Under the pieces are notes generated by a model. It saw only the letters and a list, made by a program, of their open reading frames with translations. It made no database searches and was not told where the DNA came from. Below, piece by piece: positions 7,206 through 51,081 of a stretch of DNA of 64,000 bases. Source of the DNA: an uncultured Lachnospiraceae bacterium (GTDB lineage: Bacteria; Bacillota; Clostridia; Lachnospirales; Lachnospiraceae); assembly GCA_947173495.1 (NCBI GenBank), contig CAMWFQ010000003.1:124001-188000 (forward strand). Reading direction: 5' to 3'. Numbering within the stretch: position 1 is the stretch's first letter; every line of letters begins with the position of its first letter. The translations under genes were made by a program, and so were the position numbers.

Positions 7206-9605
7206 TCAATATGCTCCCAGAATCTCCAGCACTGCTCTCTGCAGTTTTTCATCCACGTCCATCGCCTGGAGTTCACTGATCATTGCCGCCGGGTCTGCTT
7301 TACCCGACTCTGCTATTTCGTAGATCCTGTCTTTTACAGAAAATGCAATCTCTGCCCTGTTCAGGAACTCATAGAGCATCTTTTCCACCGGATTGGGGGC
7401 CACATCACACTCTGCGGGGAGAATGATCTCCACTTCCTCCCGGGGATCGATCTGCTCTAAAAAGACGACAAATGAAGATTCTCTGCATGTGAACACTGCC
7501 TTCTGCTCTGTATGATTCACAAACACGTCGGCACCTGTTGCCGTTATCTTATGAAATTCTATCCTCCAGTTCCTTTTTGAAGGAATGAGGGAAACATCTC
7601 CCACCGCCGGCAGAATCGTAAAGCGCCTTCCCGCCCAGTCAAGTTTCATCTCTGTTCTGACGCAGCTTCCCTCCTGATAGGCTTCAGAGACATTGTCGTC
7701 CTCGTACAGGGTGAAGCTGTTATCCGCACCTGGATAGACCCGTACCACAAGTTCTTCCGGGTTCTCCATGACCGTCTTTGTGTCAAAAGCATCTGTCATG
7801 GGAATAATAGCTCCCCCGCCGGCGAACACCGGCATTCTCTCGATTTCCCGGTACAGGCACAGATTTCTTCCGCCGCGGTATACCGTGTCCGTAAAGAAGT
7901 CAAACCACAATCCCTCCGGCAGCCAGGCTTTTACCTCCGCCGCATTCAATCCCTCCACACAGGGAGAGGTGATGGGAGCCACCATAAGGCTGCTTCCAAA
8001 GAAATACTGATTTTTGCGCAGATAAGCTTCTTCCTTTTCCGGATACCGGTAATAAAGAGGCTGGCAGACAGGCTCTCCTTCCTCCCATGCCCGATGATTC
8101 ATGGTGTACAGATAAGGAATCATCTGATGGCGAAGACGCAGGAATTCCTTCATCATCTCACAAATATCTTTCCGGAAACGCCAGGGCTCTTTGCCGTTAA
8201 AGGCACTGCTGGTGCTGTGCAGACGGTTGACAGGCGAAAATACGCCCAGCTGATACCATCTCCCTTCCAGCTCGTCATCCTTTTTTCCCTGCATATGGCC
8301 TCCGATATCATGACTCCACCAGCCATATCCTATATTGGATGCCGTACTTGTAAAATACGGCTGAAAATCCAGAGAATCCCAGGTAATTACCGTATCCCCC
8401 GAGAATCCCACAGGATAACGATGGGAGCCCGGTCCTGCATAACGTGAAAATGTCATGGGGCGCCTGCCATCTCTTCCACTGTCCAGATAGTGATAATGAT
8501 TCAGCATCCACAGGGGATCCAGGCCTTCCAGCTTCGTATTAGTTCCCTGCTGCCAGTCCAGCCACCAGAAATCCACTCCCTGTTCTTCCAGAGGATGATG
8601 TACCTTTTCCAGATACACTTCCAGGAATTTGGGATCCGCAATGTCAAAATTCACCGGCTCTTCCTTTGATGCATCGCGTCCCATGGCCTTTGCCACCTCA
8701 GGATAGCATTCCTCATATCCCCGGATCCCATCTGCAGGATGCACATTCAACGTGGTTTTCATTCCTCTTTCATGCAGTCCCTTCAGAAAACGTTCCGGAT
8801 CCGGAAAAAATTCCCGGTTCCAGGTATATCCCGTCCACCCGGTTCCGTATTTGGGATCGATATTCACCAGATGCCAGTCCATATCGATCACTGCCACTGC
8901 AAAGGGAATCTTCTCCTGTTCAAATCTGTCCATTAATTCCCCATATGACTTCTCTGTATATTTGAAGTATCTGCTCCACCAGTTTCCAAGGGCAAAGCGC
9001 GGCAGCATAGGCGTTTTGCCGCAGAGGTAATAGAAATCCTTCAAAGCTTCCAGATAACGGTGCCCATACGCAAACAGATAGATGTCCTTAATCCCCTTTT
9101 GCCTGGGTTCCACCCATCCATCTTCTCTGATCAGGAGGGTACGGGAATCATCCAGCGCCACACAGCCGCTCTTATAAGACATAAGCCCCTCTTCCAGCTC
9201 ACATGCTCCGTTCACTTCATCCAGCGTCCTTGCCGTCCCCTTCAGAGAATTTCCCTTTTCCCCATAGTGCCAGGCAAGACGGCTTCCTCCCGTATTCCCT
9301 TCTTCCTCCATTCCCAGGCAGGACAGGAAAAGACCGTGTGCTGTAAACTCCTTTCCATCATAAAACATCCGGAAATACTCCGTGCTGATCTCCAGTCCAT
9401 CTTCTGTCTCCCGACAGGTATAATCCACCTTTGGGAAATCTCTGTTTAAAACTGTCTGTGTTGCCTCATCCGTAAATCGCCCCTCCGGACTATATTCCAT
9501 CCGCACAAGACGCTCTGTCAGCAACGTGATCCGGTAGCACTTCCCCCGGATCATATTATCCCTGATCGCCCCGGGATGCGCCTGCAGCTTTAAATGTGAT
9601 CTCAC
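7206..9605 (-). CDS. Glycoside hydrolase family 31 alpha-glycosidase
   Basis: A 799-residue GH31 enzyme, probably an intracellular alpha-glucosidase or alpha-xylosidase since no signal peptide is seen. The N-terminal beta-sandwich runs to about residue 190, then the TIM barrel carries GNWWSRYFKYTEKSY, the nucleophile region FWWLDWQQG (Asp350) and the acid/base region GFSGDT (Asp404). C-terminal sandwich domains include YPGADNSFTLYEDD, typical of the family. The WLDWQQG form differs from the classic WxDMNE of starch-type alpha-glucosidases, so substrate is open. Translation appears to start at a GTG (9605) after GGAGGTAAGAAAAA. No transporter is adjacent. Confidence 0.9.
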   Translation of the reverse strand: MRSHLKLQAHPGAIRDNMIRGKCYRITLLTERLVRMEYSPEGRFTDEATQTVLNRDFPKVDYTCRETEDGLEISTEYFRMFYDGKEFTAHGLFLSCLGMEEEGNTGGSRLAWHYGEKGNSLKGTARTLDEVNGACELEEGLMSYKSGCVALDDSRTLLIREDGWVEPRQKGIKDIYLFAYGHRYLEALKDFYYLCGKTPMLPRFALGNWWSRYFKYTEKSYGELMDRFEQEKIPFAVAVIDMDWHLVNIDPKYGTGWTGYTWNREFFPDPERFLKGLHERGMKTTLNVHPADGIRGYEECYPEVAKAMGRDASKEEPVNFDIADPKFLEVYLEKVHHPLEEQGVDFWWLDWQQGTNTKLEGLDPLWMLNHYHYLDSGRDGRRPMTFSRYAGPGSHRYPVGFSGDTVITWDSLDFQPYFTSTASNIGYGWWSHDIGGHMQGKKDDELEGRWYQLGVFSPVNRLHSTSSAFNGKEPWRFRKDICEMMKEFLRLRHQMIPYLYTMNHRAWEEGEPVCQPLYYRYPEKEEAYLRKNQYFFGSSLMVAPITSPCVEGLNAAEVKAWLPEGLWFDFFTDTVYRGGRNLCLYREIERMPVFAGGGAIIPMTDAFDTKTVMENPEELVVRVYPGADNSFTLYEDDNVSEAYQEGSCVRTEMKLDWAGRRFTILPAVGDVSLIPSKRNWRIEFHKITATGADVFVNHTEQKAVFTCRESSFVVFLEQIDPREEVEIILPAECDVAPNPVEKMLYEFLNRAEIAFSVKDRIYEIAESGKADPAAMISELQAMDVDEKLQRAVLEILGAY

Positions 9606-9722
9606 TTTTTCTTACCTCCGTCCACTCTTCCTTAACAAAGAAGTTTTCCACTATTTTACTCCTTAAGCTGTCCCATAACAAGACCTCATTCCAATATCCT
9701 GAAAAGAATCGTTACAAATAAT

Positions 9723-9941
9723 GTTACTATTCACGGCCAATATCAGTTAGTTGACGGTAACGGATGCGGGGAGGACAAAAAAATTCTCCGTCGCCGCGCT
9801 TTCGCTCCATAAAAAGCGTAACGGGTACCAGGTTCGTGAAATACCTCACCAAGTACCGATGCTTTTTAAGGGGCTCCTTGAGAATTTTTCTGTCCTCCTG
9901 GCTTAAATGTTAGCTTACTGACATTGGCCGTGAAAAGTAAC
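9723..9941. mobile_element. MITE-like non-autonomous element with 8-bp target duplication
   Basis: The ends read GTTACT(A/T)TTCACGGCCAAT(A/G)TCAGT(T/A)AG as inverted repeats (28 bases, 4 differences), and a second inner pair GAGGACA(A/G)AAAAATTCTC matches at 17 of 18 positions. The element is flanked by exact 8-base direct repeats CAAATAAT at 9715-9722 and 9942-9949, the hallmark of transposition. At 219 bp it has no coding capacity, so a transposase must act in trans. A shorter relative is at 50936-51081. Confidence 0.85.
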
Positions 9942-10108
9942 CAAATAATATCCGTCCGGAAAGTTTTCCCGGGATATTTCCGGTAATCCCAGGCTATAAA
10001 CAAAGGTTTATGATAACTTAAGATTTTCTTTCTAATTCGGCAACACTTTAGACACAAATTTATTGTAACCTGTATTTAAACAATAAGAGTTACTCTTACG
10101 TTCATAAA

Positions 10109-10211
10109 AGAAGCCGCCGGTGCTGAAATGCGGTGCTGACCGGCTTCGACAAAATACTACAGGCGCCGCCTGTTTACATATGAGCCGATACCGGATCCGG
10201 TACCGGCTGTT
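10109..10211 (+). other. Cluster of three hairpins ending in a T-run; possible small RNA
   Basis: Three consecutive stems are seen: GAAGCCG/CGGCTTC (10109-10149 or so), CAGGCG/CGCCTG (about 10160-10173) and AGCCGATACCGGA/TCCGGTACCGGCT (10183-10208), the last followed by GTTTTT on the plus strand. No plus-strand gene precedes it, so it may be a small structured RNA with its own terminator, or a stand-alone repeat. No clear promoter was identified. The rest of 9942-10108 holds nothing I can name. Confidence 0.35.
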
Positions 10212-10216
10212 TTTAT

Positions 10217-10358
10217 GCGCAGGCCCTCATAAGGAAGTTTGCTGCCAAAGCAGCATTCGGGCCGCGCGCGAACAGGGGCAAAGTTCTTCCCCTGCTCGAT
10301 TGCGCAACCCCATGTAGAGGAAATATGCCGTCAAAGCGGCGCATGGAGCGCGCGAGCT
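10217..10358 (-). repeat. Family A intergenic hairpin repeat, inverted copy
   Basis: In minus orientation it reads GCCGCTTTGACGGC, a CATATTTCCTCTA segment, then CATGGGG, a GAGCAGGGG/CCCCTG hairpin with GCGCGCG, then GCTGCTTTGGCAGC and AAACTTCCTTATGA. This is the same order of elements as at 2779-2963 and 22408-22520, but in the opposite direction. Confidence 0.65.
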
Positions 10359-10483: not shown

Positions 10484-11551
10484 ATGAAAAAAAATTTAAC
10501 TGTCAAAAGATCTTTCCTCCTGCCCGGTGCTTTCAGAAAAACCGCAGGAATCATGCTTGCCATAGTACTTTTTGCCTGTACTCTGGCCGGCTGCGGAAAG
10601 GACGCTGCATCTGACACAGGAAAAAGCGCAGGAAGCTCTCTCAAAAAGGTAACCTTGAATGAAGTGGCCCATTCCATATTTTATGCGCCCATGTATGTAG
10701 CGATCGAAGAGGGTTATTTTAAAGAGGAAGGGATTGACCTGAACCTTGTCACCGGTTTCGGCGCGGATAAAACCATGACAGCTGTCCTGACCGATGAGGC
10801 GGATATCGGATTTATGGGCAGTGAATCGACGATTTACACCTATGCCGGCGGTACACAGGATTATGTGGTCAACTTTGCACAGCTGACACAACGCGCCGGC
10901 AACTTCCTTGTCTCAAGAGAGCCTGTCGATAACTTTTCCTGGGATATGCTGAAGGGATCCACTGTTCTTGGCGGCCGTGCCGGCGGGATGCCCGAAATGG
11001 TATTTGAATTTATTCTGAAAAAGAACGGCATCGATCCCAAAGCAGACCTGGATATTGACCAGAGTATTGATTTCGGTTCCACTGCCGCAGCATTCTCAGG
11101 TGGGCAGGCTGATTTTACAGTCGAGTTCGAGCCACACGCGACCTCCCTGGAGACCAAAGGCGACGGCTATGTAATAGCCTCTCTGGGAAAAGATTCCGGT
11201 TATGTCCCCTACACTGCCTTCAGTGCAAAACAAAGCTATATAGAGGCGAATCCCGAAGTCATCCAGTCCTTTACCAATGCCCTTCAAAAGGGTATGGATT
11301 ATGTAGCGGATCATACTCCCGAGGAAATCGCCAAGGTCATTCAGCCTCAGTTTGAAGAGACCGACCATGATACCCTGGTGACCATCATCACCCGTTACCA
11401 TGAACAGGACACCTGGAAGAAGGATCTGATCTTTGAAGAGGATTCCTTTACCCTGCTTCAGAATATCCTGGAGGAGGCCGGTGAACTGCCTGAACGGGTC
11501 CCCTATGAAAAGCTGGTGGATACCTCCTTTGCCGAAAAGGCAGCAAAATAA
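10484..11551 (+). CDS. NMT1/THI5-like ABC substrate-binding lipoprotein
   Basis: A 355-residue periplasmic-type binding protein of the SsuA/NMT1 group, which binds nitrate, sulfonates, taurine or thiamine-pyrimidine precursors for ABC uptake. A long signal peptide ends in the lipobox LAGC (Cys37). The mature part begins with the family pattern FYAPMYVAIEEGYFKEEGIDLNL, followed by GSTVLGGRAGGMPEMVFEFILKK and the VIQSFTNALQKGMDYV helix region. ACGGAGGTTATT precedes the ATG. No permease or ATPase gene is next to it, so it is an orphan or works with a remote transporter. It is the only rightward gene between rlmCD and DUF1836. Confidence 0.85.
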   Translation: MKKNLTVKRSFLLPGAFRKTAGIMLAIVLFACTLAGCGKDAASDTGKSAGSSLKKVTLNEVAHSIFYAPMYVAIEEGYFKEEGIDLNLVTGFGADKTMTAVLTDEADIGFMGSESTIYTYAGGTQDYVVNFAQLTQRAGNFLVSREPVDNFSWDMLKGSTVLGGRAGGMPEMVFEFILKKNGIDPKADLDIDQSIDFGSTAAAFSGGQADFTVEFEPHATSLETKGDGYVIASLGKDSGYVPYTAFSAKQSYIEANPEVIQSFTNALQKGMDYVADHTPEEIAKVIQPQFEETDHDTLVTIITRYHEQDTWKKDLIFEEDSFTLLQNILEEAGELPERVPYEKLVDTSFAEKAAK

Positions 11552-35289: not shown

Positions 35290-35309
35290 GACTACTATAG
35301 ATACTCCTT

Positions 35310-35520
35310 CATCGGATAGCCCTCCATCAGGATCGGTTCAGAATCGCTTCAGAATCACTGATGACAGTCATACGGCTGTTTGCCGTATGCCCAGGAAACT
35401 GTCCTGCAGAAAAAACAGCTTCCTTCGGCGCTTTTTCCTTTCATTTTTCTTCTCCTGTGCCTGCCACATCCAAAAAATTACTCATCAAAAACGCAACCTC
35501 TACCTCTTGATCTCCATTTC
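35310..35520 (-). ncRNA. Lysine riboswitch (L-box) aptamer
   Basis: In the gene-sense direction the conserved L-box elements appear in order: AGAGGTAGAGGTTGCG, GATGAGTA, GGAGAAGAAAAATGAAAGG, GCCGAAGGAAGC, a CCTGGGCATACGG helix with CCGTATG, and the closing GGAGGGCTATC, whose CTATC pairs with GGTAG of the first element. It precedes dapA and is followed by an intrinsic terminator, so it should switch dapAB off when lysine is high. Exact ends are approximate. Confidence 0.92.
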
Positions 35521-50935: not shown

Positions 50936-51081
50936 GTTACTGTTCACGGCTCAGGAATGCGCACAGGCTGCGCATTCCGTGAGAACTTGAGGCAGGTGTG
51001 AGGGGCGATTTTTGCGTAGCAAAACCTGGAATATCGCCCCGAATTGTTGCTATGAGCGGCCCCCAGGCCGGGAAGAGTAAC
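50936..51081. mobile_element. Second MITE-like element, shorter relative
   Basis: Its ends GTTACTGTTCACGGC and GTTACTCTTCCCGGC (complement of the right end) share the terminal GTTACT-TTC-CGGC of the element at 9723-9941. The direct repeat AGTAACAGTTC occurs across both borders (50925-50935 and 51076-51086), so the exact target duplication is ambiguous (at least AGTTC). The 146-bp body holds a GGAATGCGCA/TGCGCATTCC hairpin and GGGGCGAT/ATCGCCCC arms. No coding capacity. Confidence 0.6.

Follow-up and report, generated by a model that had tools for sequence, protein, structure and literature searches.

MITEs are usually regarded as hollowed-out transposons, the interior of which is meaningless. 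Repeat hairpins of enterobacteria (for example ERIC/RU), and REP, are strong hairpins that are intergenic and present in many copies. Among insertion sequences, the end consensus of the IS66 family begins with GTAA. For two IS66 elements, ISPpa5a and ISPpa7, the rows of a published table give the value 8 in a column that we take as the direct repeat (PMC3281130).

In our study, the window was the whole analysed stretch of 64,000 nucleotides from an uncultured Lachnospiraceae bacterium. It was found to contain a 219-bp unit at nucleotides 9723–9941, bordered on both sides by exact 8-bp repeats. We consider it probable that this unit is a non-autonomous, nested IS66-type MITE that is moved in trans and that carries a conserved, minus-strand, RNA-like hairpin module (the core) common to several carriers. 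The features of the locus, and of its relative in the window, are as follows.

9715–9722, no strand: left 8-bp target duplication CAAATAAT, an exact repeat
9723–9941, plus strand: complete 219-bp MITE, with a diverged copy (86%) at G000:C25:2159-2366
9723–9737, plus strand: left IS66-type terminus GTTACTATTCACGGC, like the termini of IS66-family elements in relatives
9738–9752, plus strand: second layer CAATATCAGTTAGTT, which resembles an IS4-family end (CAATGTCATTAAGTT) by sequence comparison
9770–9788, minus strand: 3' arm of the core hairpin stem P1, from inverted-arm detection and the core alignment
9781–9887, minus strand: conserved three-way-junction hairpin core (covariance model R1, 108.4 bits, the window copy being among the 23 sequences from which the model was built)
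9798–9805, minus strand: mini-hairpin GC-GAAA-GC with a GNRA tetraloop, as read on the minus strand
9880–9898, minus strand: 5' arm of stem P1, from inverted-arm detection and the core alignment
9912–9926, minus strand: right-hand second layer, reading CAATGTCAGTAAGCT on the minus strand, from sequence comparison
9927–9941, minus strand: right IS66-type terminus GTTACTTTTCACGGC, from the analysis of end motifs and duplications
9942–9949, no strand: right 8-bp target duplication CAAATAAT, an exact repeat
50936–51081, plus strand: second MITE of the superfamily, 146-bp type with similar ends and no core-model match

The initial annotation had described a 219-bp element between exact direct repeats, and these coordinates confirm it. 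It had given the element 28-base terminal inverted repeats in multi-step inverted arms around an inner inverted pair. A terminal inverted repeat does exist, but the 28 bases are the outer part of 33-nt arms (9723–9755 and 9909–9941) that are 85% complementary. The inner pair is present and measures 19 nt (9770–9788 and 9880–9898; 95% complementary), and a third inverted pair was found at 9804–9817 and 9861–9874. The multi-step arms are real, but that description was incomplete, as they represent nested modules, namely an IS66-type terminus, an IS4-like layer and a separate hairpin. The element folds better than its shuffled versions, with z values of -9.1 (plus strand) and -11.9 (minus strand), and none of the 200 shuffles matched it. 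The element was rightly called non-coding; it contains no gene of credible length, and the sole ORF noted was a mechanical one of 63 aa (9866–10057, minus strand), which overlaps the right end. It has the characters of a MITE, with a length of 219 bp, terminal inverted repeats and no transposase gene.

To the left of the element lies a gene of glycoside hydrolase family 31 (7209–9605, minus strand) and to its right an NMT1/THI5-like binding-protein gene (10484–11548, plus strand), which places the element in a divergent intergenic stretch. Among the matches listed from 37 genomes of the genus, both flanks of the locus together were present in no relative and no orthologous empty site was seen for the insertion, and the search for plasmid or phage carriage gave zero matches at E 0.01. 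Other features were also seen in the window. Two intergenic blocks within 10018–10214 (10018–10067 and 10104–10214) are conserved up to 88% in several members of the genus, and in G023, G021 and G060 they lie on contigs other than that of the neighbouring gene's match. Another repeat, at 10205–10355, has matches of about 71–88% in the element's own genome (contigs C18, C11, C12, and C14), in G020 and in others. A lysine riboswitch is present on the minus strand at 35309–35510 (127.5 bits).

Judged from its ends, the window element can be placed in a MITE superfamily with GTTACTnTTCA ends. The 17-base end recurs. At up to three mismatches, five matches were found in the window (0.08 expected) and 34 in the element's own genome, against 19 for the reversed control. 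A stricter pattern of 14 bases, 12 of them specified and with no mismatch allowed, gave 17 matches in the own genome against 0 in the control, and across the genus 201 matches in 20 of 37 genomes against 9 in the control. The counts were highest in G025 (58) and G029 (57), followed by G001 (19), G000 (17), G005 (12), and G030 (12). Since the control itself gives 9 matches and most of the matches lie in these six genomes, lone matches elsewhere may be due to chance. Ends lying 60–260 bp apart were paired in the collected loci (L001–L229), which gave 67 pairings, including alternatives at one locus. The 8-bp duplication was exact in 22 of these pairings and had at most one mismatch in 30, whereas the offset controls, with one side shifted by 1–12 bases, gave 0–1 duplications and a 9-bp duplication fitted only one pairing. 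In the own genome, the duplication was found at 9 of the 16 loci with an end pair (seven exact, two with one mismatch).

The internal types of the superfamily, in a comparison that counts the window locus under several ids, include that of the window (219 bp), a common type of 144–146 bp, a type of 193–197 bp with the same core, and others. The shorter relative described for the window (50936–51081, 146 bp) belongs to the common type. It is real and has similar ends, but a clean 8-bp duplication is absent, with AACAGTTC on the left and AGTTCAAC on the right. One MITE copy was nested within another at L160, and a tandem pair lay 8 bp apart at L171. In G029 (L189, 3126–3208), a copy of 83 bp is flanked by an exact duplication of 8 bp; it resembles the core-carrying type minus the core and most of the left arm. 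Four loci of the own genome (L018, L020, L025, and L031) contained GTAAC or ATAAC, resembling the element's end, in the 8-bp duplication or the left flank, and it is possible that the element prefers an end-like target at these loci.

The transposase partner of the MITE is likely to be a divergent IS66-family insertion sequence. The 8-bp duplication had been held to narrow the transposase family, and it did so. In relatives, we located complete elements of the IS66 family that have GTTACTTTTCA, GTTACAGTTCA or GTAACTATTCA at their ends and are bordered by exact 8-bp duplications. The own assembly, in 52 contigs, gave no match for an IS66 transposase (PF03050), so the element is probably dormant there. 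G005 and G025 each contain a divergent IS66-type transposase gene (57.6 and 58.0 bits to PF03050, cut-off 23.1) followed by a GTTACTTTTCAC sequence whose last base lies 58 and 70 bp past the stop codon, respectively; the left ends of these two copies were searched for and not found, and the copies are incomplete. In G005, the core-carrying MITE at L156 starts with GTTACTTTTCACACGTACGCCA and the IS66 copy ends with GTTACTTTTCACACCCACGCCA, 20 of the first 22 bases being in agreement. The terminus common to MITE and IS66 is short, about 12–15 bp, and reaches about 22 bp in G005. G023 (L095) contains a complete IS66 element of 1824 bp that has GTAACTATTCAG at its ends and is flanked by an exact duplication of 8 bp, and that of G018 (L093) has GTAACTATTCAG at both ends and no exact duplication. 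Of the 30 IS66 loci of the genus inspected for GT..AC ends together with a duplication, L095 was the one clean case and L100 a weak one.

A scan of public genomes with the G005 and G025 proteins gave 23 fetched loci, 20 of which were examined; two of them (L207 and L223) are apparently the G005 and G025 copies again. A terminus ending in GTAAC was found 38–139 bp downstream of the transposase match in 16 of the 20 loci, once with a mismatch, and both ends were found in eight. The exact 8-bp duplication was present in two of the seven testable two-ended copies, namely L222 (TTTGGCAA) and L213 (TCTTACTT), and the five others, which lack it, may be old or rearranged. Of the two copies with the duplication, one is 2303 bp long, has the ends GTTACTTTTCATGGGGTGGGGAA and comes from an uncultured Acetatifactor; the other is 2237 bp long, has the ends GTTACAGTTCAGAC and comes from a Butyrivibrio MAG. 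A short ORF lies upstream of the transposase ORF in one complete partner copy. The 8-bp length agrees with the IS66 rows in the table of PMC3281130. The ends start with GTTAC in the window element and its closest partners and with GTAAC in L095 and L093, and three partner proteins score less than the NCBIfam IS66 cut-off of 180 (126, 95, and 144 bits), which L093 exceeds (242). As the closest partners depart from the GTAA consensus and three of the four proteins lie below the cut-off, the partner is called a divergent IS66 subgroup. The numbers of IS66 genes do not track those of MITE ends; G007 has 10 IS66 genes and 0 ends, and G025 has 1 and 58, respectively. The reading as a MITE that has an IS66-type partner is thus far well supported, and taken alone it is ordinary.

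Conservation is higher in the interior of the element than in its arms. Read as RNA of the minus strand, the interior forms a three-way-junction hairpin that consists of the stem P1, a junction stem, a long hairpin P2, and the mini-hairpin GC-GNRA-GC. P1 is about 22 bp long and free in sequence, with a G-A-rich internal loop alongside. The core set contained 43 sequences, of which one with an N was dropped, and the remaining 42 gave 38 near-unique hairpins. Alignment A2 held 32 of the 38 and alignment A3 held 23 of the 32; these sequences were chosen by hand, and long insertions, near-duplicates, and some others were left out. In the minus-strand alignments of 32 and then 23 sequences, the junction stem GCC/GGC was also seen as GTC/GAC, ACC/GGT, GGC/GCC, and GAC/GTC. 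The 23 sequences contained 120 double-change cells against 37.5 in shuffles. In 100 matches, which are not independent since the sequences behind the model and many copies from G120 are among them, and whose alignment was fitted to the model, there were 749 double-change cells against 230 shuffled (0 of 500 shuffles) and 93.9% paired cells against 73.3% shuffled. The tetraloop was GNRA in 31 of the 32 aligned cores and in 97 of the 100 matches (GAAA 37, GAGA 26, GCAA 19, GGGA 8, GGAA 6, and GCGA 1), and this variation almost wholly within GNRA argues for selection on minus-strand RNA. The asymmetry of G-U against A-C, which serves as a test of RNA over DNA, was suggestive in the 32 sequences (21 to 8, p 0.024) and weak in the 100 matches (51 to 39 cells, 11 to 5 columns). 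Taken on sequence grounds, the double-change pairs and the GNRA-bound tetraloop appear to form the conservation pattern of selection on a folded minus-strand RNA.

The core had no Rfam match at the gathering threshold, at E up to 1 for nine loci or at E up to 10 for the window stretch, and on this ground a known Rfam RNA was rejected. A kink-turn has a 3-nt bulge and tandem G-A pairs, flanked by C and NC stems. A GGA/GAC internal loop is common in the cores; a classical kink-turn was not upheld, as column 11 pairs with column 98 (G-C in 22 and G-U in 1 of 23). The orientation of the core to the neighbouring genes, determined for 76 of the 100 matches and given as the strands of the upstream and the downstream gene, was -/- in 28, +/+ in 20, -/+ in 16 and +/- in 7, one side being unknown in 5, and no clear bias was seen. 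Seven of the 76 overlapped an ORF of at least 150 aa.

Some part of the window element was found by blastn in 23 of 60 genomes, all within the genus, and its middle (positions 67–157 with their neighbours) occurs alone in relatives, amid other arms and ends. At E up to 1e-4, the covariance model had matches in 84 of 250 Lachnospiraceae genomes, every one of them from a different genus. Fifteen of the 84 contained at least 15 matches, and others one or two. A search of G120 alone, with E up to 1e-3, gave 79 matches. Among 291 genomes drawn from the whole class, the model matched 7, all of them Lachnospiraceae, and no other family was present among the matches listed. A further search with the core model covered 94 of the collected loci. 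Closely spaced inverted pairs of cores, with gaps of about 100–180 bp, were seen in G019 (L051 and L073), G171 (C30, C11, and C20), and G281 (C29). Derivation of the core from an IS66 element was rejected, as no core match was found in the 14 of the 23 fetched IS66 loci that were searched, nor in L093 and L095.

A second carrier was found in G248, where the core lies in an element of about 204 bp with AGGTAATTGCGAAAC ends and duplications of about 14 bp. The duplications matched at 14 of 14, 12 of 13, and 11 of 14 bases in three loci and at 9 of 12 in a fourth, the comparison covering these four of the five loci fetched. This carrier is a different kind of transposon.

The nested layers also bear on the origin of the ends. 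Immediately inside the 15-bp terminus, the sequences CAATATCAGTTAGTT and CAATGTCAGTAAGCT resemble the IS4-family end CAATGTCATTAAGTT of relatives, and the GTTACT ends might accordingly be those of an IS4-family transposon instead of IS66. IS4-family transposases (NF033592, PF01609) do lie behind CAATGTCATTAAGTT ends, which in several genomes follow GTTACTnTTCAC-like sequence, directly after the IS66-type terminus. We consider this origin very unlikely, and it is largely refuted by two complete IS4-family copies, which begin with CAATGTC and have duplications of 9 and 10 bp (ATTCATAGG and ATTCACATAT), against the 8 bp of the MITEs. Because these duplications lie in the preceding sequence, ATTCAC is part of the target and not of the IS4-family end; ATTCA(C), which also occurs in the IS66-type terminus, seems to be a preferred target of the IS4-family element. 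CAATGTC ends were seen directly behind GTTACTnTTCAC-like sequence in most of G021 L169, G015 L170, G001 L113 and L136–L138, and G005 L075–L077, which would fit a target preference of IS4-family-like elements for that sequence. The spread of the core is a separate question. A REP-like palindrome moved by a RAYT/Y1 transposase would fit the high copy number, the hairpin form and the inverted pairs with gaps of about 100–180 bp, and a GGAG adjoins the core hairpin. It is nevertheless the least probable of the readings considered here and was rejected, as 6 of the 12 core-bearing genomes tested, including G000 and G120 with its 79 core matches, gave no match for Y1_Tnp (PF01797); the core model was applied to 11 of the 15 Y1 loci, and one (L356) gave a partial match, cut by the contig end.

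Two further readings concern the relation of the core to its arms. The core may be a long inverted repeat inherited with the MITE, its conservation being due to recent spread and not to selection. Many copies within a genome do have arms and core in common, as expected of recent amplification, and the counted core matches are not independent; against this, the core persists over 84 genera as arms and carriers change, the tetraloop stays almost wholly within GNRA (97 of 100), and the junction stem changes by double substitutions, so that we find this reading improbable. Somewhat less doubtful, though still unlikely, is that the core represents a previously undescribed class of structured RNA or hairpin that is mobile, with a lower stem of about 22 bp renewed at insertion, and that the MITEs are secondary carriers that captured it. 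The core would then insert at the tip of a pre-existing inverted repeat, or its insertion would copy one flank as an inverted duplicate. P1 is 21–23 bp long in 42 of 76 copies from several genera. In G120, no common ends outside P1 were seen in five aligned copies, and over the 26 of the 79 matches that were used, the outer 15 bases of P1 were 85% paired against 36% in the flanking control (G-T counted as paired). Among 11 pairs of G120 copies with at least 90% core identity, the outer arms were 13–33% identical in eight and 53–93% in three, and a second group of copies has arms in common. At one G120 locus, the orthologous sites in G324, G334, and G312 hold apparent decayed right halves, with the same arm in G324 and G334; G336 has the core with different arms, and the hairpin was not seen in five others shown (9 of the 19 fetched loci were shown). 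This pattern suggests that an arm is inherited in place, and yet that the arms are not fixed for the core.

We keep to the nested IS66-type MITE with a conserved hairpin module. An IS66-family transposase acting in trans would recognise the GTTACTnTTCA termini and move the 219-bp unit, leaving the 8-bp duplication, as the matching ends and the duplication length suggest. The core hairpin is a module in its own right that has spread through the Lachnospiraceae in more than one carrier. By analogy with bacterial repeat hairpins, it would act when intergenic transcription reads through it, most likely as a structured element of RNA processing or stability. Its function is thus putative, and the core has the appearance of a structured, mobile element that is so far undescribed.

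No published account of an IS66 MITE or of a Lachnospiraceae structured core was found among the papers listed, as judged by title and abstract opening in mostly non-subscription literature. The interior of a MITE is here a conserved fold common to at least two unrelated carriers, and this allows a test of whether a functional RNA fold can be dispersed within a bacterial family by small mobile elements. The ends, the 8-bp duplication and the covariance model together provide an annotation handle for this repeat, of which G120, the one genome searched alone with the model, has 79 matches.

Compared with the IS66 family (DDE_Tnp_IS66, PF03050), the partners share the IS66-type transposase, the terminal inverted repeats, and the 8-bp duplication (L095, L222, and L213), whereas the window element contains no transposase and the ends of the closest partners begin with GTTA instead of GTAA. 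ERIC/RU and REP resemble the core as many-copy intergenic repeats with strong hairpins; the core differs from them in its three-way junction, its GNRA mini-hairpin, its sequence-free P1 of about 22 bp, and the absence of an Rfam match. Bacterial MITEs such as MITEPsy1 are, like the window element, short and non-coding, with terminal inverted repeats, a target duplication, and presumed mobilisation in trans (PMC3189936). In contrast to such MITEs, the window element has an interior that is conserved far beyond the element itself and is common to unrelated carriers.
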